From Thiohalobacter sp. IOR34 (GTDB lineage Bacteria > Pseudomonadota > Gammaproteobacteria > Thiohalobacterales > Thiohalobacteraceae), in contig NZ_CP128988.1 of assembly GCF_030406045.1 (NCBI RefSeq), positions 186,001 through 250,000 of the forward strand: a DNA stretch of 64,000 nucleotides, in the 5' to 3' direction. Of the stretch, positions 22,375-34,027 are shown in pieces (position 1 is the first letter of the stretch; each line of letters opens with the position of its first letter). The notes under the pieces were generated by a model. That model was not told the DNA's origin. It searched no databases and was given only the letters and a program-made list of their open reading frames with translations. The translations under genes were made by a program, and so were the position numbers.

Positions 22375-23772
22375 TCACTGGGTGGCTCCGTTCAAGGCGT
22401 TTTCCTCAGAGGGGGCATTGGACAATGACGTAAACCCAGCTGCCCGTGGTTTGGTCAGCGCTTGCCAGGCATGGACGTAGGCTTGCTGCTGCCAGTGTTT
22501 ATCCTTCCCGGCAAGCGAAAGGGCGAAAACCTTCCGGCCGGCGGCATCCAGGAAATGCACTGCGCTTTCGGTCTCGGCACGGCGCAGGAACCATGCCTGC
22601 CCGAGTCGTGGCAGCTCGATCTCCAGGCTGAACTGCGGGGCTTCCAGGCGCAGCCGGTCGCCATCGAGCAGGAAGACAGGATTGTCCACTGTCAGCCGGC
22701 ATTCCGCGCCGGTCCCGCTCGCCACCCGGGCGTGCAGCCGCCCCCACTGCGCAGCCGCTTCGAGGAGGTCGTCGATGCGCGCCCCCTGGACCCGGGCGGC
22801 GGACCAGGCGCCCGCGCCGCCGTCGCCTTCGCTCTCTGCGATGGCGGAGAGGATCTCGCCCAGCGGCGCATCGAAGTGGCGGGCGGCCTCTTCAGGGGTC
22901 CGTATCGGATCCTCGCGCAGCCATGCGCGCGCGCAGGCCTTCCAGTTTTCCAGGCCCATGCGCAGCGAGCGGCCGGCCTGCTCGCCCTCGCGGACCGCGC
23001 CGGTTTCGGTGTCGTACTTGTTGCCGTAACCGCGCGGCGTGATCATGAGGCCGTGCCGCGCATATGTCTGGCTGTTGCCGATCAGCACGGTGGTCAGCAT
23101 GCCAATCTTGCACTCCGCCATCTCTTTCAGGGTGACGAGCTGAATATCCTGTTTCTGCCGGTAGGCCGACTTGACGATGGCCACCGGCGTATCGGGTTTG
23201 CGGTAGCGCAGCAGAATGCGTTGTGCCTCGACGATCTGCTGGGTCCGACGGCCGCTCTTGGGATTGTAGAGCGCCACCACGAAATCGGCCCGGCCGGCCG
23301 CATCCAGCCGTCGGGCGATGCGCGGCCAGGGCGTCAGCAGATCCGACAGGGAGATGGCGCAGAAATCGTGGGTCAGGGGGGCGCCGATCAGGGACGCGGC
23401 GGCATTGAGTGCCGTGGCCCCGGGTATCACTTCCACTTCGATGTCACTTCCGGGTTCCCACCCGGCGGCGAACAGGGTCTCGTACGTGGGGCCGGCCATG
23501 CCATACACGCCGATGTCACCCGATGAGACCAGGGCCACCGTCTTGCCCTGCCGGGCACGCTCCCAGGCTTCGATACAGCGATCGATTTCCTCGGTCATGC
23601 CCTTGCGGACCACTTCCTTGCCATCGAGCAGGTCCCGCACCAGATTGATGTAGGTGGCATAGCCGATCACCGTATCGGCCTCGGCAATGGCCTCGCGGGC
23701 CCGTTGAGTCATGTGCTCGGCGCTGCCGGGCCCGAAGCCCACCAGCAGAATCTTGCCCTTGCGCGTGTTCAT
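22375..23772 (-). CDS. cobJ: Precorrin-3B C17-methyltransferase fused to a HmuS/ChuX-like domain
   Basis: Residues 1 to about 255 are a class III SAM methyltransferase of the CobJ/CbiH family, which methylates C17 and contracts the corrin ring: LLVGFGPGSAEHMTQRA, VSSGDIGVYGMAGP, VIPGATALNAAASLIGAPL, ALYNPKSGRR. CobJ/CbiH normally ends there. The extra 200 residues read like one repeat of hemin-degrading HmuS/ChuX proteins: a helical IRTPEEAARHFDAPLGEILSA, then LTVDNPVFLLD and a core with SLEIELPRLGQAWFLRRAET, VHFLDAAGRKVFAL and WQAL. The domain assignment is by eye and should be tested. It is the last gene of the cobalamin operon and overlaps cbiG by 4 bp. It has no Fe-S cysteine cluster, unlike the long CbiH60 form. 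Confidence 0.88.
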   Translation of the reverse strand: MNTRKGKILLVGFGPGSAEHMTQRAREAIAEADTVIGYATYINLVRDLLDGKEVVRKGMTEEIDRCIEAWERARQGKTVALVSSGDIGVYGMAGPTYETLFAAGWEPGSDIEVEVIPGATALNAAASLIGAPLTHDFCAISLSDLLTPWPRIARRLDAAGRADFVVALYNPKSGRRTQQIVEAQRILLRYRKPDTPVAIVKSAYRQKQDIQLVTLKEMAECKIGMLTTVLIGNSQTYARHGLMITPRGYGNKYDTETGAVREGEQAGRSLRMGLENWKACARAWLREDPIRTPEEAARHFDAPLGEILSAIAESEGDGGAGAWSAARVQGARIDDLLEAAAQWGRLHARVASGTGAECRLTVDNPVFLLDGDRLRLEAPQFSLEIELPRLGQAWFLRRAETESAVHFLDAAGRKVFALSLAGKDKHWQQQAYVHAWQALTKPRAAGFTSLSNAPSEENALNGATQ

Positions 23773-24890
23773 GCGTCCTCCAGCCAGGCGATGGATACGG
23801 TGGCATTGCGGCCATCGGGGCCGCGATGCTTGTGTTTTTCGATCAACAACCGGCGCATGTCGCCACCGGCCAGAATCAGGGCGGCGGCCTCGGCCACCGA
23901 TGGCGTGCCCATGTATTTGCGTACCGTCTCCGAGGGATTGGGCACTTCGATCCGTGCCAGTTCGTCCGCGGTATGGAAATGCAACTTCCAGCCATGACGC
24001 TCGGCAACGCGCAGCAGGCCGGCTTCGTCCGACTTGCGATCGATACTGCCCGCTGCGACGACCACCTCCGGCCCCCGATCCAGTCGGGCCAGGGCATCGC
24101 TAATGGCGGTTTCGATGGTCTCGGCGGGGGTGTCCCTGTCACAACCCAGCCCCAGGACGACACGCACGGGCGGTCGATAGATCACCAGTCCGGGATGGTC
24201 TTCCCGCAACCCCGCCGGCACCTCGCGATGGGTTATCCACAGCAGGGTGTCATACCGCTTGCGATCCACTGCTTCCAGACGATCATGACGATGAATATTG
24301 TCCGGCAGCGGTTTGTCTGCCGGCCACCAGGCCGTGGTGCCACATTCCTGCACCAGGGCCACCGGCTCTCCATTGACCACATCGGCGGCCGCATGCACCA
24401 GCGCCTCCCGTGAGGCCGACACCTGCCAGCCCCACTCCCGGCCCAGAATATCCACCGGCAGGGTACCCAGCGACTCGGAGGCCGTGGTCAGCACCGGCAG
24501 GGCGCCCAGCACGCCGGCCAGCTTCTCGGCAAAGGCATTGGCGCCACCGAGGTGCCCGGACAGCACGGGAATCACGAAACGACCGGCATCGTCCACCACC
24601 ACCACGCCCGGATCCACGTCCTTGCCCTTGAGGTGCGGAGCGATCAGGCGCACGGCGGCGCCGATGGAGAACACGAACACCAGCTGGTCGAACTCGCGAA
24701 ACAGCGTGCCGATGGCACCACCGAACGGCGGCTTGATGGGATGCACCTCGTTCGGCACATCCCTGGCCTCATCCGCAAAACGGGCACTGATGAACAGGGC
24801 GGCCTCGGGCAGGGCGGGGCCAAGTGCCGCCAGCCGCTTGGCGCCATGACGGGTAATGGCGACCATGGCGACGCGTTCGGCGGCGCTCAT
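23769..24890 (-). CDS. cbiG: Cobalt-precorrin-5A hydrolase
   Basis: Opens the delta-lactone of cobalt-precorrin-5A and releases acetaldehyde, a step specific to the oxygen-independent route. The 373-residue product has an N-terminal domain with PFGGAIGTLFREFDQLVFVFSIGAAVRLIAPHLKGKD-type sequence, a central DDAGRFVIPVLSGHLGGAN block and a C-terminal GLGCDRDTPAETIETAI domain, all family hallmarks. The start at 24890 overlaps the cobI stop (ATGA). The frame remains open upstream, but that part only shadows cobI. Confidence 0.93.
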   Translation of the reverse strand: MSAAERVAMVAITRHGAKRLAALGPALPEAALFISARFADEARDVPNEVHPIKPPFGGAIGTLFREFDQLVFVFSIGAAVRLIAPHLKGKDVDPGVVVVDDAGRFVIPVLSGHLGGANAFAEKLAGVLGALPVLTTASESLGTLPVDILGREWGWQVSASREALVHAAADVVNGEPVALVQECGTTAWWPADKPLPDNIHRHDRLEAVDRKRYDTLLWITHREVPAGLREDHPGLVIYRPPVRVVLGLGCDRDTPAETIETAISDALARLDRGPEVVVAAGSIDRKSDEAGLLRVAERHGWKLHFHTADELARIEVPNPSETVRKYMGTPSVAEAAALILAGGDMRRLLIEKHKHRGPDGRNATVSIAWLEDA

Positions 24891-25654
24891 CGGGCCGCCT
24901 CCCGGGTCTTTTTCCGGCAGCCGCGGACGATGGGTCCGCGGCTCCGATGCGGATTGCGCACCAGGATCAGCGAGAGGTAGTTCACCGTCTCGCCCCGAAG
25001 GCTCGCCAGATCGAGCACCTTCCGCTCCTCGGGCGTGCCGGCCCGCTCGATGAAGGCGCTGTGCGGGAGCAGGCCGCGCTTCTCGAGCAGGTCCAGCAGG
25101 TCGTCGAGCACCGGCTTGACCTTGAGCAGCACCAGGGTGTCGAAATCGGCCAGCAGGCGGTCGATCATCTCGACCCCGTAGCCGGCGGGCACGATGGCCA
25201 GGGTGTCGTCGGTCTCCGCCAGCGGCATCCCCAGACCGGCGGCGGCGGCGTTGAAGGAGGACACCCCCGGCACGGTTTCGATCTCCACCCCGGCATCGAG
25301 GGAGGCGACGGTTCGGGCCAGGTGGCCGAAGGTGGCATAGGTGGACGCGTCGCCCTCCACCAGGAACAGCACGTCCTCGCCGCGGCGCAGACGTTCGAGC
25401 ACCGTCTCCGCGGCCCGCAGCCAATGGCGCGCCAGCTTTTCCGCGTCGTGGGTCATGGGAAAGACCAGCGCGGTGTGTTCTTCCGGCAGGGGCAGGCCGG
25501 CACGCAGGGCGATGTCCAAGGCGAAGCTGTCGCTTTTGGCGCTGCGCACCGGGTAGGTCCAGTGGGCGTCGCCGGTGAGCAGTTCCCAGGCCCGGCGGGT
25601 GATCAGGCCGGGATCGCCGGGGCCGACGGAGACGCCGTACAGTTTGCCTTTCAT
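24887..25654 (-). CDS. cobI: Precorrin-2 C20-methyltransferase
   Basis: SAM-dependent methylation of (cobalt-)precorrin-2 at C20. The 255-residue class III methyltransferase shows LYGVSVGPGDPGLIT, FLVEGDASTYATF, ETVPGVSSFNAAAA and VLLKVKPVLDDLLD, as in CobI/CbiL. The ATG at 25654 is preceded by GGAGAGAGGATTGAG, which decides the start over one eight codons upstream. Its ribosome site lies within the end of cobL, suggesting translational coupling. Confidence 0.94.
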   Translation of the reverse strand: MKGKLYGVSVGPGDPGLITRRAWELLTGDAHWTYPVRSAKSDSFALDIALRAGLPLPEEHTALVFPMTHDAEKLARHWLRAAETVLERLRRGEDVLFLVEGDASTYATFGHLARTVASLDAGVEIETVPGVSSFNAAAAGLGMPLAETDDTLAIVPAGYGVEMIDRLLADFDTLVLLKVKPVLDDLLDLLEKRGLLPHSAFIERAGTPEERKVLDLASLRGETVNYLSLILVRNPHRSRGPIVRGCRKKTREAAR

Positions 25655-25655
25655 C

Positions 25656-26936
25656 TCAATCCTCTCTCCGTTGTGCACCGATGATCCACACCGGCGTCTC
25701 CGGCGCCAGCCGTTGCATGTCCAGGATGGGCTTGTTGCGGCAGACCGAGAGCTGGCAGAGTTCCCAGTCCGCTTCCCGTTCCTTCAGGCGGGTGACGGCG
25801 CGGTGCATGTTCTCCAGGGTGACGAAGTTCATGACCAGGCGCCCGCCGGGCCGGAGGCGCGAGAGCGCGATGTCGATCAGTTGTTCCAGTTCGCCTCCGG
25901 AGCCGCCGATGAAGACGGCATCCGGATCGGGCCAGCGGTCCAGTCCCTCGGGGGCCCTGGCATGGGTGAGGCGATAGTTAGTGAGGCGGAACCGGCGCTG
26001 GTTGCGGCGGACGATGGCGGCGTCCTCGGCGTTCTTTTCGATCGCGAAGACGAAGCCGTCCGGACACAGGCGGGCCGCCTCCATGCCGACGGAGCCGGAG
26101 CCGGCGCCGATGTCCCAGACGATGCTGTCGCGGCGCAATGCCATCCAGGCCAGCGACACGGCCCGCACCTCGCGCTTGGTGATCAGGCCGGCTCGCGGTT
26201 TGCGCTGGTGGTAGGCATCGTCGGCGAGCCCGAACAGCACCGGGGCAGGCAGGGCGGCGCGGGGGCGCAGGATCACGACGTTGGGGTCGCCGAAACGGCG
26301 ATCCCTGATTTCGGACGCCGGCAGGAAACCGGTCACCCGTTCCCCGGGCAGCAGCAGCCTTTCCGCGACGGCCATTTCGTATTCGTCGGCCAGCGACACG
26401 GCATCCAGCATGCGCGCGATGCGTCCGGGACCGTTTTCCGGACTGGTGAAGACGGCCAGCAGGTCGCCGCGCCGGATTGCCTGCAACAGGGGGTAGAGGC
26501 CGTGTTCGGGGCCGGCGTCCGCGTGCCATTCCCCCGTGTCCTTGCCGTGGATGGAAAAGATGCGGGCATCCTGCCAGGCGACACCCAAACGCGCGAAGGC
26601 CAGCTGCACGACTGAGGTGTTGGGCAGCACGCGGCAACGTTCGCGTCCCAGCTTGCCGATCAGGTAGCGGGCGATGCCGTGGCAGAGCGGGTCGCCGGTG
26701 GCGAGCACCACCACCTGCCTGCCTTGCGCCAGGCCCTCTTCGATCCATTCGGGCACCCGGCCCAGGGCGCCGGAAAGATCCCTCGTCTCGCACTCCGGCC
26801 GGATCTCTGCCGCGAACAGCGCCAGGGTGCGGGTGTGGCCGATCAGCAGGTCGGCGCCGCGGATCGAGTCCAGCGCGGCCCGGCTGAGCCCTTCGGCGCC
26901 GTTGTCGAGGACGCCGACGATGTGGCATTCAGGCAT
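25656..26936 (-). CDS. cobL: Precorrin-6Y C5,15-methyltransferase (decarboxylating), CbiE-CbiT fusion
   Basis: A 426-residue fusion of two enzymes. The N-terminal CbiE half (1 to about 205) is a class III methyltransferase with VLATGDPLCHGIARYL and VLPNTSVVQLAFARLG. The C-terminal CbiT half (about 210-426) is a Rossmann methyltransferase with VWDIGAGSGSVGMEAARL and AVFIGGSGGELEQLI. Together they methylate C5 and C15 and decarboxylate the C12 acetate. The gene overlaps the end of cbiD by 8 bp. Confidence 0.95.
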   Translation of the reverse strand: MPECHIVGVLDNGAEGLSRAALDSIRGADLLIGHTRTLALFAAEIRPECETRDLSGALGRVPEWIEEGLAQGRQVVVLATGDPLCHGIARYLIGKLGRERCRVLPNTSVVQLAFARLGVAWQDARIFSIHGKDTGEWHADAGPEHGLYPLLQAIRRGDLLAVFTSPENGPGRIARMLDAVSLADEYEMAVAERLLLPGERVTGFLPASEIRDRRFGDPNVVILRPRAALPAPVLFGLADDAYHQRKPRAGLITKREVRAVSLAWMALRRDSIVWDIGAGSGSVGMEAARLCPDGFVFAIEKNAEDAAIVRRNQRRFRLTNYRLTHARAPEGLDRWPDPDAVFIGGSGGELEQLIDIALSRLRPGGRLVMNFVTLENMHRAVTRLKEREADWELCQLSVCRNKPILDMQRLAPETPVWIIGAQRRED

Positions 26937-28086
26937 CCCGGACCTCCGCCATCTTGTTGCCCTCGAAGTCGCAGATCAGCACCCGCAGGCGGAACTTGCC
27001 CGGGTAGCGGGCGCTCAGCGTGGCGATGACCCGGCGGCCCAGGATCTCCAGGAAGCGGGCATCCAGGCCGATCTCCGCGAGCCGCTCCAGCGCGAAGCGC
27101 GCCGTGTTCGCCTCGCGGATGGTCTTGCACAATGCCTCGCCGGCGCCCGCCTCGGCGGCGATCTCGGCGACCAGGTCCGTGTTCACCGGATTGCGCCCGG
27201 CATGGGTGATGGTCTCGCCCTGGGCCATCTTCACCAGCTTGCCCACCATGCCGCCGATCACGACCTTGGGGATGCCGTTCTCCACCACGGCATCCAGCGC
27301 CGGTTTGAGAAAGTCGCCCATCTGCACGAAGCAGGCGGGCGCAAGCTGGGGCAGCTCCCGCATGACGAACTTCTCGGTGCGGCCGCCGGTGGTCAGGACC
27401 ACGGTGTCCTGTCCCTGCCGGGCGGCGACCTCGATGCCCTGGATCACGCTGGCCCGGAAGGCGGCGGTGGACCAGGGATGGACGATGCCCGTGGTGCCGA
27501 GGATGGAGATGCCGCCGACGATGCCCAGGCGGCCGTTCAAGGTGCGCTTGGCCATCTTCTCGCCGTCCGGCACCGAGATGGTCACCTCGATGCCGTGCGT
27601 TTCCAACAGTGCCGCCCCGGCCTCGGCGACGTTCTCGCAGATGTTCTTCCGCGGCACGGGGTTGATGGCCGGCCCGCCCACTTCCAGGCCCAGGCCGGGC
27701 TGGGTCACGGTGCCCACGCCGGGACCGCCCCGCAGGACGATCTCGCCGGGACGGTCCGGCAGCAGGCGCAGGTCCGCCGTCAGCCGCGCACGATTGGTGA
27801 CGTCGGGGTCGTCGCCGGCGTCCTTGACCACCACGGCATGGGCAGAGGTCTTTGTGGCGCGGCCCTCGCTGACCGCGAAGGTCACTTCCTTGCCGTTGGG
27901 CAGCCGGCAGCGGATCCGCGCCGGCACGCTTCCGGTCACCAGCCCGGCGGCCGCGGCGCGGGCGGCGGCCGCCGAGCAGGCGCCGGTGGTGAAGCCGGTG
28001 CGGTTGCCGCGCTTCTTCTTCCGCCCGCGCGGGCCGGAGGCCTTGGGCCGGGTATCCTCCGTGGCCAGGGGCTGCATGCTCACCAT
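26929..28086 (-). CDS. cbiD: Cobalt-precorrin-5B C1-methyltransferase
   Basis: Methylates C1 in the oxygen-independent pathway. The 385-residue protein has the CbiD signature NRTGFTTGACSAAAARAA near the start, then GGPGVGTVTQPGLGL, NPVPRKNI, GIVGGISILGTTGIV and TTGGRTEKFV. A basic Lys/Arg-rich leader precedes the signature. It begins inside the last codons of bluB (7-bp overlap) without an obvious ribosome site, consistent with coupling. Confidence 0.95.
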   Translation of the reverse strand: MVSMQPLATEDTRPKASGPRGRKKKRGNRTGFTTGACSAAAARAAAAGLVTGSVPARIRCRLPNGKEVTFAVSEGRATKTSAHAVVVKDAGDDPDVTNRARLTADLRLLPDRPGEIVLRGGPGVGTVTQPGLGLEVGGPAINPVPRKNICENVAEAGAALLETHGIEVTISVPDGEKMAKRTLNGRLGIVGGISILGTTGIVHPWSTAAFRASVIQGIEVAARQGQDTVVLTTGGRTEKFVMRELPQLAPACFVQMGDFLKPALDAVVENGIPKVVIGGMVGKLVKMAQGETITHAGRNPVNTDLVAEIAAEAGAGEALCKTIREANTARFALERLAEIGLDARFLEILGRRVIATLSARYPGKFRLRVLICDFEGNKMAEVRDA

Positions 28087-28733
28087 CGGTCGTAGTGGAT
28101 CAGTTCATCGATCGGCAGGCGGGGCAGCCAGCCGGCCTTTTCCAGTTCCGGTTTTTCGTGGAAGCCGCTGACGTGGCCGACGCAGAGGTAGGCGATGGGC
28201 ACGATGCCTTCCGGAATGCCGAGGACCTCCTTCAGCCGGTCGGGATGGAGGATGCTCACCCAGCCGACGCCGAGGTTTTCCGCCCGCGCCGCGAGCCAAA
28301 GGTTCTGCACGGCGCAGACCGTGCTGTAGAGATCCATCTCGGGCTGGCTGGTGCGGCCGATGACCGGCCCGCCGGTGCGGCTGCGGTCGCAGGTGACCAC
28401 CAGCCCCAAGGGCGCCTCCAGGATGCCCTCCAGCTTGAAGGCGCGGTATTTCTCCCGCCGCGCCTCGTCGAACATTTCCGCGGCTTCCCGGTGGGCCGCC
28501 TCGAAATCCTCCTTGATGCGCCGGCGGATGGCGCGGTCGCGCACGATGATGAAGTCCCAGGGCTGCATGAAGCCGACGCTGGGGGCGTGATGGGCGGCGT
28601 CCAGGAGCCGGCGCAGCACTGCCTCGTCCACCGGGTCGGGGAGGAACTCGCGGCGGGTGTCGCGGCGGTGGTAGAGCACCTTGTAGAACCCCGCGCGCTC
28701 GGCCGGGGTGATCTCGGGCCGGATGCCGCTCAT
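28080..28733 (-). CDS. bluB: 5,6-dimethylbenzimidazole synthase
   Basis: Nitroreductase-fold flavoenzyme that converts FMNH2 with O2 to the lower ligand of cobalamin. The 217-residue product carries FYKVLYHRRDTRREFLPDPV, the BluB-specific HHAPSVGFMQPWDFI, and LGVGWVSILHPDRLKEVLGIP. Because its chemistry requires oxygen, its presence beside oxygen-independent ring genes is informative. It overlaps the cobH stop by 4 bp. Confidence 0.93.
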   Translation of the reverse strand: MSGIRPEITPAERAGFYKVLYHRRDTRREFLPDPVDEAVLRRLLDAAHHAPSVGFMQPWDFIIVRDRAIRRRIKEDFEAAHREAAEMFDEARREKYRAFKLEGILEAPLGLVVTCDRSRTGGPVIGRTSQPEMDLYSTVCAVQNLWLAARAENLGVGWVSILHPDRLKEVLGIPEGIVPIAYLCVGHVSGFHEKPELEKAGWLPRLPIDELIHYDRW

Positions 28734-29395
28734 GACGCCTGTCTTGCCTTCTCGGCCTCGGCCAGCAGCGCGTGGATGGCGGCGACCACCAGGGTGGAGC
28801 CGCCCTTGCGGCCCTCGGTGATGATCCAGGGTAGATCACTGAGGGCGGCGATCGCCGCCTTGGACTCGGCGGCGGAGACGAAGCCCACCGGCATGCCGAT
28901 GACCAGCGCCGGGCGGGCGCCTTCTGTCTCGCACAGCCGCTTGACCTCCAGCAGGGCGGTGGGGGCGTTGCCGATGGCGACGATGCCGTCCGTGAGCAGG
29001 CCCAGCCGGTGCGCCTTGCGCATCGCCTGCACGGCGCGGGTGCTGTTCTCGGCCTTTGCACTGGCGATCACGTCCTCGTCCGAGATGAACTGGTGGGTGT
29101 CGATGCCGAAATGGGCCAGGCGGGGTTTCGACAAGCCCACGCAGATCATCTCCACGTCGGCGACGATGGGCCGGCCGCGCAGGATGGCGTCGATGCCGGC
29201 CTGCACGGCATCGGGATGGAAGCGGGCCAGGCCGTTGAACTCGAAGTCTGCCGTGGCGTGGATCATGCGCCGGACCAGGGGCCACTGTTCGGCGGTATAG
29301 CCGTGCGGGCCGGCCTCGCGGTCGATGATGGCGAAAGAATCGTGCTCGATCTGCCGGCCGGCCTGGGTCAACTGTTCGGTGATGCGCTCGCTCAT
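28730..29395 (-). CDS. cobH: Precorrin-8X methylmutase
   Basis: Moves the methyl group from C11 to C12 to give (cobalt-)hydrogenobyrinate/cobyrinate. The 221-residue protein has the catalytic histidine in RRMIHATADFEF (His46), VEMICVGLSKPRL, GIVAIGNAPTALL and ALVIGMPVGFVSAAESK, all typical. It overlaps cbiX by 4 bp (ATGA). Confidence 0.95.
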   Translation of the reverse strand: MSERITEQLTQAGRQIEHDSFAIIDREAGPHGYTAEQWPLVRRMIHATADFEFNGLARFHPDAVQAGIDAILRGRPIVADVEMICVGLSKPRLAHFGIDTHQFISDEDVIASAKAENSTRAVQAMRKAHRLGLLTDGIVAIGNAPTALLEVKRLCETEGARPALVIGMPVGFVSAAESKAAIAALSDLPWIITEGRKGGSTLVVAAIHALLAEAEKARQAS

Positions 29396-30282
29396 TTCGG
29401 AAGGGCCTCCGTCTCAATGTCTTGGGCATGGCCGTGATCGTGGTGATGGGGGTGTCCGTGGCCCTGTTCCTCGGCCAGGCTGCGGTAGCGGCAGCCGTCG
29501 CATTCCATCCGGACAGGCTGCTGCGCGGGCAGCTCGCCCGCGGCCTCGCGCACGCGCGCATCCAGCAACGCGAAGATCTCCTCCTCGAAGCCGAAGTAGT
29601 CGGCGCAGGCGAAGGCGATATGCGGATACTGGCGCTCCAGCCGGGCCACCTGGCGGCGGATGCGCTCGATGAGAGTGCCGGTGAAGAGGTAGTAGGGCAG
29701 GACGGCGATCTGGGTCATGCCCAGCCTCGCCTGGCGCTGCACGACGGCCTCCAGGCGGGGGTGGGTGATGCCGGTGAAGGCGATGTCCACCAGCTCGTGA
29801 TCGCCTTCCTCGAACAGCCAGCGCGCCATCTTCGCCACCTCGCCGTTGGCCGCCCGGTCGGAGGCACCCCGGCCGAGCAGGATGACGCCGGTGGTGCGCG
29901 GATCCGGATGATCCAGGGCGCCCATGGCGCTGCGCAGCCTGCGTTTCAGGATGGCGAGGATCTTCTCGTTGGCGCCGAGGTGGCGGGCGTACACGAACTC
30001 GACGTCCGGGTGTCTGCCCCGCGCCTGCTCGATGTGGTGCGGGATCTCCATCTTCACATGCCCGGCCGCATTCAGGATCAGGGGCACCACGATGACCCGC
30101 CCGGCGTCGCCGGCGGCGCGGTCGAGTCCTTCGTCGAGCAGCACCTCGGCGAACTCGATGAAGCAGGTCTCGATGCGCCACTGGGGATTGGCCGCGGCCC
30201 AGCGGCGGGCGAATTCGAGGATCTCCTCGTTGGCCGCAGGCAGGCGCGAGCCGTGGCCGACCAGCAGGATGGTGGCATTCAA
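29392..30282 (-). CDS. cbiX: Sirohydrochlorin cobaltochelatase, long form with His-rich tail
   Basis: Inserts Co2+ early, into sirohydrochlorin. The 296-residue protein has two CbiX-type halves: LLVGHGSRLPAANEEI with His10 and NAAGHVKMEIP with His75 in the first, and LLGRGASDRAANGEVAKM and GITHPRLEAVV in the second. It ends with a Cys pair (CDGC) and a histidine-rich run GHGHPHHHDHGH that probably binds metal. No ATG exists in frame; the TTG at 30282 has GGGGGA upstream and overlaps the cobM stop (TTGA), so it is the likely start. Confidence 0.9.
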   Translation of the reverse strand: MNATILLVGHGSRLPAANEEILEFARRWAAANPQWRIETCFIEFAEVLLDEGLDRAAGDAGRVIVVPLILNAAGHVKMEIPHHIEQARGRHPDVEFVYARHLGANEKILAILKRRLRSAMGALDHPDPRTTGVILLGRGASDRAANGEVAKMARWLFEEGDHELVDIAFTGITHPRLEAVVQRQARLGMTQIAVLPYYLFTGTLIERIRRQVARLERQYPHIAFACADYFGFEEEIFALLDARVREAAGELPAQQPVRMECDGCRYRSLAEEQGHGHPHHHDHGHAQDIETEALPK

Positions 30283-31079
30283 GACGTTTCCCCCTTCGCC
30301 GCAATCGCCTTGCGAAAACGGTGGCTGAATCGTTTGTCGTAGAGTTTCGAAGTCTTCACTTCTTTCCGGCCGCGCGCGCCCAGGGCGGGGCTGACGATGA
30401 TCATGGCCTGGCTGTGGATCCTCGACGCCTTGCATCGCTCGCGGATGTCGGCGAGCGTGCCCCGGACGATCTTCTCCTCGCCCGGCCAGCTCGCTTTCTG
30501 CACCACCAGCACGGGGCAGTCCTCGGACCAGCCGGCCGCCAGCAGGGCCTCCCGGATCTTCTTGAGCAGGGTGATGGAGAGGAACAGACACAGGGTGCAA
30601 TGGTGCCGGGCCAGTTCCTCCAGCGACTCGCCCTCCGGCATCGGCGTGCGTCCTTCGACCCGGGTGAGGATCACGGTCTGGGTGACTTCGGGCAGGGTCA
30701 GGGTTTCCCTGGCCGCGGCCGCCGAGGCCATGGCCGAGGAGACGCCGGGCACCACGCCAGCCTCGATGCCGGCAGCGTCCAGCGGCCGGAGCATCTCGAT
30801 CAGCGCGCCGTAGAGGGTGGGATCCCCGGTCTGCAGCCGCACCACCGTCTCGTGCCGGGAGGCCCGGCGAATCAGCCAGCCGGTGATCTCCTCCAGGGTC
30901 ATGCCCCTGGAATCGGCGACCTCGCATCCTTCCGGGGCCCAGCGCAGCACGGCCTCGGACACCAGCGATCCGGCGTACAGGATGGCGCCGGCGCGCTCGA
31001 GCAGGCCGCGGCCCTTGACCGTGATCAGCTCCGGGTCGCCGGGACCGGCGCCCACGAACCAGACCTTGCCGGGCGTCAT
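30279..31079 (-). CDS. cobM: Precorrin-4 C11-methyltransferase
   Basis: SAM-dependent C11 methylation. The 266-residue class III methyltransferase shows VWFVGAGPGDPELITVKG, AGSLVSEAVL, VVRLQTGDPTLYGAL, VPGVSSAMASAAAA and LTLPEVTQTVILTR, the CobM/CbiF set. The start at 31079 follows cbtA with a 4-bp overlap; upstream open codons shadow cbtA. Confidence 0.95.
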   Translation of the reverse strand: MTPGKVWFVGAGPGDPELITVKGRGLLERAGAILYAGSLVSEAVLRWAPEGCEVADSRGMTLEEITGWLIRRASRHETVVRLQTGDPTLYGALIEMLRPLDAAGIEAGVVPGVSSAMASAAAARETLTLPEVTQTVILTRVEGRTPMPEGESLEELARHHCTLCLFLSITLLKKIREALLAAGWSEDCPVLVVQKASWPGEEKIVRGTLADIRERCKASRIHSQAMIIVSPALGARGRKEVKTSKLYDKRFSHRFRKAIAAKGETS

Positions 31080-31777
31080 GGGGAGAGGCGGCGGTGGAAG
31101 AAGCCGTAGAGCCCGCCGAGGGCCAGCCAGAAGGCGGCATTGGTGAGCAGGGCGGCCGTCTCGAAGGAGTCGATCAGCGCTTCCGGCGCCAGGGCCTGGT
31201 GAACCTCGGGCCGGGGGGCGCCGGCCAAGTGCGGCAGTGCCAGCAGCGCGGCCCCGCCAGCGCGGGCGATCCAGCCGCGGCCGAAGACCAGCAGGGCCAG
31301 TCCGGCCGCCGTGGCCGCCGCCGCGCCGGTCCACCACAACTGGCGGTCGCGCAGCGCCGCGGCCTCGGTGCCCGGCAGTTCCGGCGGCAGGCCGAGGGTG
31401 GGCGCGAGATAGAAGACGACGAACCCGGCCGCGCCCCAGGCGAGTCCGCTGCGCCAGTCCGGGTCGGTGCCCCGCAGGGTGATGGCCGCGCCGAGCAGCA
31501 GGGCGAAGCCCAGGGCGATCACCAGATTGGCCGCGGCGGTGAAAAGCAGGCGTTCCATGCCGTCTTCCGGCTGCCAGCCGTCCTCCGTTTCCCCGTGGCC
31601 GTGGTCGGCCGCCGCGGGATGATCGTGCGCCGCGCCGCCGGCCGCCGCCTCGTAGGTTTCCGCCTCGAGAATCGCCGGGACGACCTCGATCTGCTGGAGC
31701 AGGGTGAGCAGCAGGCCCGCCGAGAGGGCGGCGAAGGCGGCGGCCGTGAAGAGGCGCCGGAACCGGCTTCCGGTCAT
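31076..31777 (-). CDS. cbtA: CbtA-type cobalt transporter subunit
   Basis: A 233-residue membrane protein with about five hydrophobic segments (near 9-30, 78-98, 110-128, 148-166 and 208-228). A histidine-rich extramembrane loop (AHDHPAAADHGHG) fits metal handling. CbtA occurs with CbtB under B12-riboswitch control and is predicted to import cobalt. Its position inside the riboswitch-led operon directly after cbtB supports that. The transport mechanism is not experimentally settled for the family. Confidence 0.88.
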   Translation of the reverse strand: MTGSRFRRLFTAAAFAALSAGLLLTLLQQIEVVPAILEAETYEAAAGGAAHDHPAAADHGHGETEDGWQPEDGMERLLFTAAANLVIALGFALLLGAAITLRGTDPDWRSGLAWGAAGFVVFYLAPTLGLPPELPGTEAAALRDRQLWWTGAAAATAAGLALLVFGRGWIARAGGAALLALPHLAGAPRPEVHQALAPEALIDSFETAALLTNAAFWLALGGLYGFFHRRLSP

Positions 31778-32000: not shown

Positions 32001-33308
32001 TCAGTTGACGGGTGAAGCTGTGGGGGTCGAGAACAACCGGGCAGTGGCCGCCGGGTTGGATGGGAAATAGAGATGCAGGTAGGAGGCGTGCAGGCGGCCC
32101 TGCCGATAGACGGGTTCGCCCTGCCTGCCCTTGCGCGCCGGCTCGCTGGTGGCGGCCGGCGCAAGCGGCGTTTCCAGCCGCGAGTAGTGGTAGCTGTGGC
32201 CGCGCAATCCCCCCTCGGGCAGCACGACCCGGTGGAGGCCCAGGTTGGCGAGCCGTTCCTGCATGGCCGCCTTGCCCGGCAGGAGCCCGGCCATCTCCGC
32301 GGTACGGCCGGCCACGTCGGTCAGGGATTCGCACAGGTAGAGCATGCCGCCGCACTCGGCGACGATCGGCTTGCCCGCGGCATGATGGGCGGCCAGCGCC
32401 GCCTTCATGGACCGGTTGGCCTCCAGCCGCTCGAGATGCAGTTCCGGGTAGCCGCCGGGCAGGTAGAGCGCGTCCGCTTCCGGCGGGGCGCTGTCGTCGA
32501 GCGGCGAGAAGAAGCCGATCTCCGCGCCCAGTGCCTGCAGCGTGTCGAGATTGGCGCGGTAGACGAAGGAAAAGGCCTCGTCCCGGGCCACGGCGACGCG
32601 GATGTCATCCAGATGTGGCGGGCAGGCTTCCTCTTCCGGCGGTGCCTCGAAGGAGACCTCCGGGGGCAGCTCGCAGGCCGGCCCCTGGAGCGCGGCGGCC
32701 GCCCGCGCGATGCGGGCATCGAGATCGCCGATCTCTTGCGCCTGCACCAGGCCGAGATGCCGGCCGGGCAGGCCGATCTCCTCGTCGCGCTGCAACCAGC
32801 CGAAGGTACGCATGCCCTCCGGCAGGCTCTCGGCGAGCATCCGGTAGTGGTGTTCACTGGCCACCCGGTTGGCGAACACCCCGGCGAAGGGGAGCCCCGC
32901 GCGGTAGGTGGCGAGCCCGTGGGCCAGGGCACCGAAGGTCTGGGCCATGGCACTGCCGTCGATGACGGCGAGCACCGGCACGCCGAACAGACTGGCCAGG
33001 TCGGCGCTGGAACGGTCGCCGTCGAACAGCCCCATCACCCCTTCGATCAGGATCAGGTCGGCATCCCCCGCCGCTTCGTACAACAGCCGGCGGCAATGCG
33101 CCTCGCCGCCCATCCACAGATCGAGGTTGTACACCGGGGCCCCCGATGCCCGTTCCAGGATCATCGGGTCGAGAAAGTCCGGCCCCGTCTTGAAAACGCG
33201 CACCCGCCGGCCACGGTCGCGGTGCAGCCGGGCCAGCGCCGCGGTGACGGTGGTCTTGCCCTGGCCGGAGGCGGGGGCGGCAATGAACAGGGCGGGGCAG
33301 CGTCTCAC
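32001..33308 (-). CDS. cbiA: Cobyrinate a,c-diamide synthase
   Basis: ATP-dependent glutamine amidotransferase that amidates the a and c side chains of the corrin. The 435-residue protein has the P-loop APASGQGKTT (11-20), GPDFLDPMIL, EGVMGLFDGD, and a C-terminal class I amidotransferase domain with nucleophile Cys in AECGGMLYL and His in GHSYHYSR. The start is GTG at 33308, overlapping the cobO stop by 4 bp; the frame upstream shadows cobO. The neighbouring oxygen-independent genes favour the CbiA rather than the CobB substrate. Confidence 0.92.
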   Translation of the reverse strand: MRRCPALFIAAPASGQGKTTVTAALARLHRDRGRRVRVFKTGPDFLDPMILERASGAPVYNLDLWMGGEAHCRRLLYEAAGDADLILIEGVMGLFDGDRSSADLASLFGVPVLAVIDGSAMAQTFGALAHGLATYRAGLPFAGVFANRVASEHHYRMLAESLPEGMRTFGWLQRDEEIGLPGRHLGLVQAQEIGDLDARIARAAAALQGPACELPPEVSFEAPPEEEACPPHLDDIRVAVARDEAFSFVYRANLDTLQALGAEIGFFSPLDDSAPPEADALYLPGGYPELHLERLEANRSMKAALAAHHAAGKPIVAECGGMLYLCESLTDVAGRTAEMAGLLPGKAAMQERLANLGLHRVVLPEGGLRGHSYHYSRLETPLAPAATSEPARKGRQGEPVYRQGRLHASYLHLYFPSNPAATARLFSTPTASPVN

Positions 33309-33910
33309 AGGTCGACCCCCTTTTGCGCCCGCACGCCGGCGCGGAAGGCGTGTTTGACGTCGCGCAGTTCGGTGACGGTGTCGGCGGCGTCGATCAGCGC
33401 TTGCGGGGCGCCGCGGCCGGTGATCACCACGTGCTGCATGGACGGGCGCGCCTCGAGGTCGGCCAGTACCTGGTCGAGGTCCAGCCAGCCGTACTTGAGC
33501 GGGTAGGTGAGCTCGTCGAGCACCACCAGCCCCAGGCTTTCGTCGGCCAGCATGCCGCGCACCACCTCCCGGCCCTTTTGTGCGGTGGCGCGGTCCCGTT
33601 CGAGGTTCTGGGTCTCCCAGGTGAAGCCCTCGCCGAGCACATGCCAGACCACGCCGGGCTGGCGCCGGAAGAAGGCCTCCTCGCCGGTATCCTGGCGTCC
33701 CTTGACGAATTGCGCCACGCCGACCTTCATGCCGTGCCCCAGGGCCCGCGCCACCATGCCGAAGGCGGAACTGGACTTGCCCTTGCCGTTGCCGGTCAGG
33801 ACCAGCAGCAGGCCCTGGTCGCGGTCCGCGCGCGCAATGGCGGCGTCGACCACGGCCTTCTTGCGCTGCATGCGTTTGCGGTGGCGCTCTGTGGGGTCGG
33901 TGGTATCCAA
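33305..33910 (-). CDS. cobO: Corrinoid adenosyltransferase
   Basis: Adenosylates cob(I)yrinic acid a,c-diamide (CobO/BtuR type). The 201-residue product has the P-loop GNGKGKSS (40-47), FGMVARALGHGMKVGVAQFVKG, and LVVLDELTYPLKYGWLD. The open frame extends back to 34183, but that part is the riboswitch leader. The TTG at 33910 gives MDTTDPTERHRKRMQRKK, close to the family N-terminus and length (BtuR is 196 residues). The ATG at 33871 would give 188 residues and is the alternative. It is the first gene of the operon. Confidence 0.92.
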   Translation of the reverse strand: MDTTDPTERHRKRMQRKKAVVDAAIARADRDQGLLLVLTGNGKGKSSSAFGMVARALGHGMKVGVAQFVKGRQDTGEEAFFRRQPGVVWHVLGEGFTWETQNLERDRATAQKGREVVRGMLADESLGLVVLDELTYPLKYGWLDLDQVLADLEARPSMQHVVITGRGAPQALIDAADTVTELRDVKHAFRAGVRAQKGVDL

Positions 33911-34027
33911 GTCCTCGTCTTCCGCAGCCAGGTGTGTGGCACGAAGGCATGCGGGGGCGGAAACAAGGACGGAGGCAGGGATTGCAGGACCTGTCGCCGT
34001 GGCACCGCCCTCCGCAATGCCGGCTTT

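Follow-up and report, generated by a model that had tools for sequence, protein, structure and literature searches.

The window, that is, the whole stretch of 64,000 nucleotides from Thiohalobacter sp. IOR34 that was analyzed, carries on its minus strand a gene for CbiH, the methyltransferase that contracts the ring in oxygen-independent B12 synthesis, which is extended at its C-terminus by a domain of the HemS/ChuX fold. This CbiH-HemS fusion is not private to the window genome but is shared, as an uncharacterised feature, by many Proteobacteria that oxidise methane or iron. According to our best explanation, which is held tentatively and with less than even confidence, the HemS/ChuX tail of CbiH would form, along with a ferredoxin, a tetrapyrrole-holding or tetrapyrrole-reducing module, the window copy of which is probably altered or in the course of being lost. 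The following features were assigned to the gene:

22375..23772, minus strand, cbiH-hemS fusion gene, 465 aa (open reading frame)
23008..23772, minus strand, CbiH/CobJ precorrin-3B (cobalt-factor III) C17-methyltransferase domain, residues 1-255 (TIGR01466, 328 bits; PF00590)
22453..22947, minus strand, HemS/ChuX-type domain, residues about 276-440 (profile, PDB search, fold)
22456-22815, minus strand, PF06228 match, residues 320-439 (Pfam)
22621..22734, minus strand, positions of the family pocket signature R347, R351, E359, H382 and H384, here H, A, R, S and E (tail alignment)

The frame of 465 codons starts with ATG, and its translation agrees with the coordinates and the length given in a first-pass annotation of this DNA, the strand being minus. 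The cobJ_cbiH model TIGR01466 spans residues 8-249 with 328.5 bits, compared with a curated cut-off of 246.35, and the CbiH domain keeps every residue that is invariant in a 16-member family. The first-pass annotation had counted about 200 residues beyond the methyltransferase; the extension exists, but its size had to be reduced to about 190 residues, since the segment GY.NKY...GE..G.SL in front of the HemS/ChuX domain is common to the tail-less CbiH proteins of Thermus and Leptospira, and residues 245-275 thus represent the end of CbiH and a linker. A Pfam scan of the whole protein yielded the families TP_methylase and ChuX_HutX only, and no nitrite/sulfite-reductase-like [4Fe-4S] domain.

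The tail had been regarded in the same annotation as a single-repeat HmuS/ChuX-like domain on the basis of four quoted motifs, all of which were found in the translation. It had also suggested a profile search against the HmuS/ChuX families and a structural overlay as checks, and both bore the assignment out. The Pfam family ChuX_HutX matched residues 320-439 with profile positions 15-134 of 134 at E-values of 1.5e-4 (complete protein) and 2.6e-5 (only the tail); the corresponding score was 24.5 bits, and 25.7 bits with neighbours in frame, compared with a curated value of 25. All 16 homologous tails examined matched ChuX_HutX (best E-value 3.1e-13), and the same 16/16 was obtained for HemS (best 8e-10). 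A profile of the family tails detected chains of HemS, ChuS and PhuS in the PDB at 1e-6 to 1e-4; these matches came from the family profile only, as a phmmer search with the window tail alone gave no match in the PDB. The AlphaFold2 model of the window tail (pLDDT 83) led Foldseek to 27 first matches that all belong to the HemS/ChuX fold, and VIA-align placed the model on ChuX with Z 18.1 and an rmsd of 2.3 over 151 residues, on HutX with Z about 18 and on HemS, ChuS and PhuS with Z about 15. The full-length model, with a pTM of 0.47, does not give the mutual orientation of CbiH and tail. The match goes beyond chance, as the 16 homologous tails, the profile search of the PDB and the predicted fold all agree. 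The window tail is a true HemS/ChuX homologue with a single repeat, and a second HemS repeat is absent from the tail model.

Among the known proteins of this fold, ChuX and HutX (PF06228) resemble the window tail in length and in that helices at the N-terminus precede a beta sheet, and they superimpose on it with Z 18.1 (6u9j) and 17.8 (5exv) over 151-158 residues at 14-18% identity. Unlike ChuX and HutX, the fused tails are joined to CbiH and encoded in a B12 cluster rather than in a haem-uptake operon, and the haem-contact strand reads HLH in the fused tails and SLE in the window copy. The proteins HemS, ChuS, HmuS and PhuS (PF05171) are homologous to the tail by sequence (PDB profile E-value 1e-6) and by fold (Z about 15); they reduce or carry a tetrapyrrole and consist of two repeats, whereas the fused tail has one. 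The position of HemS R102 is occupied by His in the fused family and by Glu384 in the window copy. The combination of two repeats, the haem ligand His196 and the distal Arg102 that characterizes the NAD(P)H-dependent haem degraders HemS and HmuS was not found in the window tail.

The fused gene is the last one in a same-strand cluster that comprises the genes for CbtA, CbiF, CbiX, CbiC, BluB, CbiD, CbiE-CbiT, CbiL and CbiG; upstream lies the gene of a CbiA-type synthase:

23769..24881, minus strand, CbiG, cobalt-precorrin-5A hydrolase (part of frame 23769-25424)
24887..25678, minus strand, CbiL
25656..26936, minus strand, CbiE-CbiT fusion
26929..28086, minus strand, CbiD, anaerobic-pathway marker
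28080..28733, minus strand, BluB
28730..29395, minus strand, CbiC
29392..30300, minus strand, CbiX-type chelatase with a C-terminal His-rich stretch in the translation (part of frame 29392-31140)
30279..31073, minus strand, CbiF (part of frame 30279-31337)
31079..31777, minus strand, CbtA cobalt transporter subunit
32004..33308, minus strand, CbiA/CobB-type a,c-diamide synthase (PF07685, PF01656; part of frame 32004-33950)

The presence of CbiD, CbiX and CbiG marks this cluster as one of the oxygen-independent pathway. The sole corrin-ring enzyme absent from the otherwise complete anaerobic cluster is CbiJ, and the CbiJ/CobK profile PF02571 gave no match across the whole window genome, the tail matching ChuX instead. 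A regulatory partner was likewise not seen in the cluster, which, along with the replacement of the HemS haem-contact strand DLR by HLH in the fused family, speaks against a function of the domain as a haem sensor that adjusts B12 synthesis to the haem supply; this role is very improbable, even though the fold family binds haem and the haem and B12 pathways share uroporphyrinogen III.

The fusion was found in about 118 loci from Methylococcales, Zetaproteobacteria, Gallionellaceae, Ferrovum and other Proteobacteria. It occurred in 20 of 369 gammaproteobacterial genomes, and a scan of GTDB genomes provided 113 relatives, 80 of which were retained, including Methylococcus, Methylomonas, Methylobacter, Methylotuvimicrobium, Gallionella, Sideroxydans, Ferrovum, Mariprofundaceae, Ghiorsea and various Gammaproteobacteria. 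Subsamples were used for both the class and the phylum, and they include some draft genomes. One further match in the gammaproteobacterial scan (genome G273, locus L051) was discarded, as it represents a zinc/manganese-type substrate-binding protein and not a tail. The fused gene carries the plain name cobJ in annotation pipelines, and a literature search for precorrin, ChuX and fusion retrieved no published description of the combination. Not all tails are intact: in Burkholderiales (G693, G625 and Methylibium) and in Thiodictyon the tail is reduced to its first helices with loss of the beta part, the cluster being kept, and the tails of G423 and G429 are strongly altered. Since the lineages with truncated tails retain the cluster and the step also takes place in relatives without a tail, the HemS/ChuX domain is non-essential for ring contraction as such.

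Other arrangements of CbiH were also encountered. Genome G350 (L035:718-2829, minus strand) encodes CbiH-HemS and BluB in one frame of 704 residues, a triple fusion within the B12 pathway, and in two loci from genomes of family f211 (L252 and L253) CbiG is located at the N-terminus of CbiH in a single frame of about 650 aa. On a plasmid of Leptospira interrogans (L305:11998-13488), a CobJ protein of 497 aa ends in about 220 additional residues without any Pfam match, and the respective cluster lacks CbiJ and contains an FAD-dependent oxidoreductase. A plasmid of Methylomonas sp. LL1 (L303) carries a whole anaerobic B12 cluster, with the fused CbiH and the ferredoxin, flanked by transposases, so that the module can move horizontally.

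The ferredoxin belongs to the [2Fe-2S] thioredoxin-like family PF01257 and is labelled 'ferredoxin' in the annotation of Methylomonas sp. LL1. Its gene is the next one after the fused gene in 93 of 119 loci with a tail and lies within 2 kb in seven more (100/119), while about 17 tail-bearing loci with room downstream have no adjacent ferredoxin. It also adjoins both truncated-tail genes, and it was detected in none of the 14 loci without a tail; the clade therefore acquired the tail and the ferredoxin more or less together. A strict coupling of the ferredoxin to an HxH motif was considered and rejected, as 83 of 103 HxH tails have an adjacent ferredoxin gene and 13 tails with a variant motif have one too. 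In the window cluster the ferredoxin is absent, and elsewhere the genome has only a distant paralogue with 59 bits, compared with 177-236 bits for most true members.

This linkage suggests electron transfer at the CbiH step. In the proposed scheme, the domain of the fused family and the adjacent [2Fe-2S] ferredoxin would act as an accessory module for ring contraction, in which the HemS/ChuX domain would hold the cobalt-tetrapyrrole next to CbiH and the module would help to deliver two electrons for the conversion of cobalt-factor III to cobalt-precorrin-4. According to Moore et al. in 2013, CbiH60 of Bacillus (Priestia) megaterium reportedly needs a nitrite/sulfite-reductase-like [4Fe-4S] extension and a reductant for this very conversion. 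Like the fused proteins, CbiH60 has its extension at the C-terminus of CbiH; that extension is a [4Fe-4S] domain, whereas the tail of the fused family is of the HemS/ChuX type, and the HemS-fold tail plus the ferredoxin might be the equivalent of the Fe-S tail of CbiH60. The CbiH60 operon begins with cbiW-cbiH.

The HemS/ChuX domain may plausibly handle corrinoids, and precedents exist for both a reducing and a carrying function, since HemS and ChuS supply haem with hydride from NAD(P)H and PhuS acts as a haem chaperone (PMC11773379). The latter activity is the model for a non-catalytic holder that shuttles the labile cobalt-tetrapyrrole between CbiL, CbiH and CbiF without redox chemistry, as HutX and PhuS do with haem. 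The nearest folds are indeed the single-domain proteins ChuX and HutX, and fusion to a pathway enzyme suits channelling, but such a holder leaves the linked ferredoxin unexplained, and we consider it rather unlikely. A redox-active corrinoid enzyme, formed in Methylococcales, Zetaproteobacteria and relatives by the HemS/ChuX domain and the ferredoxin, that would reduce either cobalt-factor III or, in replacement of CbiJ, cobalt-precorrin-6A, is regarded as rather doubtful. The best-supported guess is that the fusion serves ring contraction in a reductive or a holding capacity.

The window copy departs from its family in the ligand pocket. Residues R347, R351, E359, H382 and H384 (window numbering) are 97-100% conserved across the 117 other tails, and the full pattern RREWHHW is present in 95 of 118 sequences, including the nearest relative of the window protein (G043, L161), which keeps the full pocket pattern, whereas the window protein has H, A, R, S and E at these positions. 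In an alignment to repeat 1 of HemS, R351 corresponds to the Arg of TRN, E359 to the Glu of VHE and H384 to R102, a haem contact located two residues from the gate residue F104. Moreover, 16 of 67 conserved tail columns are changed in the window copy, compared with a median of seven. With all five signature residues replaced and no ferredoxin in the cluster, the window tail is probably altered or decaying. It is quite conceivable, though short of an even chance, that the domain of the window genome is a decaying or purely structural remnant without a ligand, the more so as the beta domain has been wholly lost in related lineages. Against a mere remnant stand the open frame, the retained hydrophobic and fold-forming positions, the well-folded AlphaFold2 model of the tail and a tail identity of 0.325 that is only modestly below the 0.386 (sd 0.043) of pairs at equal CbiH distance. 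With an open frame and intact fold positions but a lost pocket, the domain would still fold, and whatever chemistry it performs on a ligand must be different or absent. The loss of family-conserved pocket residues thus weakens a tetrapyrrole-binding role for this copy, and no other ChuX-type domain was found in the window genome. The CbiH part probably stays active in this genome while the tail is altered or lost.

The absence of CbiJ raised a further interpretation, in which the tail on CbiH would be the lacking reductase that acts on cobalt-precorrin-6A with NAD(P)H, standing in for CbiJ/CobK without being homologous to it. The first-pass annotation had proposed a survey of whether the fusion correlates with the absence of CbiJ/CobK, and among 40 gammaproteobacterial genomes with CobJ/CbiH the anticorrelation was perfect: all 20 genomes with the fusion lack PF02571 and all 20 with an unfused protein contain it. 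CbiJ was also detected in none of 43 fused GTDB genomes looked up and in none of 20 further fused genomes of the phylum sample, although some genomes may recur across these sets of 20, 43 and 20. The window genome fits this pattern, and the hydride chemistry of HemS on a tetrapyrrole (PMC11773379) is consistent with a reductase. In genome G036 (L004:727-2274, minus strand), a protein of 515 aa carries CbiJ itself at the C-terminus of CbiH, so that such a position is tolerated; this second pathway domain is attached to the same end of CbiH as the HemS tail, but it is a Rossmann-type reductase unrelated to HemS.

The class sample of 20 versus 20 had appeared to prove that the tail replaces CbiJ, a conclusion that was demoted by the phylum sample and by a tree of 129 CbiH domains. 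In about 30 CbiH genomes of the phylum sample, both CbiJ and a full tail are lacking. In the tree, fused and truncated-tail sequences form one clade of 62 rows (support 100/98), which is joined by 19 tail-less sequences from CbiJ-less genomes in a clade of 81 rows (100/98), outside of which CbiJ is usual. Because these 19 tail-less relatives also lack CbiJ, its loss most simply predates the tail; in the simplest history, CbiJ would have been lost or replaced by something unknown first, and the tail would have been gained once, later. The truncated-tail Burkholderiales have neither CbiJ nor the beta domain, and CbiJ was present in only three of seven well-known control genomes with CobJ, consistent with published papers that report it missing in most archaea, in Geobacter and in the methanotroph Methylocaldum. 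Replacement of CbiJ by the tail is therefore a minority reading that we regard as unlikely. The correlation between the tail and the missing CbiJ is real and confounded by descent, and it does not amount to evidence of replacement; the CbiH tree is a warning against taking such co-occurrence as replacement.

Anaerobic cbi clusters that look complete but have neither CbiJ nor a HemS domain were also observed (L246-L258, L273, L274 and L277). BluB was rejected as a general hidden reductase, as it is absent from the related clusters examined, and an all-against-all comparison of CbiJ-less clusters for a shared unknown gene returned only known cbi/cob genes and the ferredoxin, which occurs in no clade but that of the tail.

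Little is understood of the reductive steps in anaerobic corrin synthesis, both the reduction of cobalt-factor III for ring contraction and the CbiJ step in the many producers that lack CbiJ. Since culturable methanotrophs such as Methylomonas and Methylococcus combine a domain of the tetrapyrrole-binding type on CbiH with the ferredoxin, part of this question is directly testable, and a methanotroph is a better subject for the function of the fusion than the window organism. If the reductive role is true, a corrinoid reductase of the HemS fold would represent a new catalytic role for a fold of haem utilisation.
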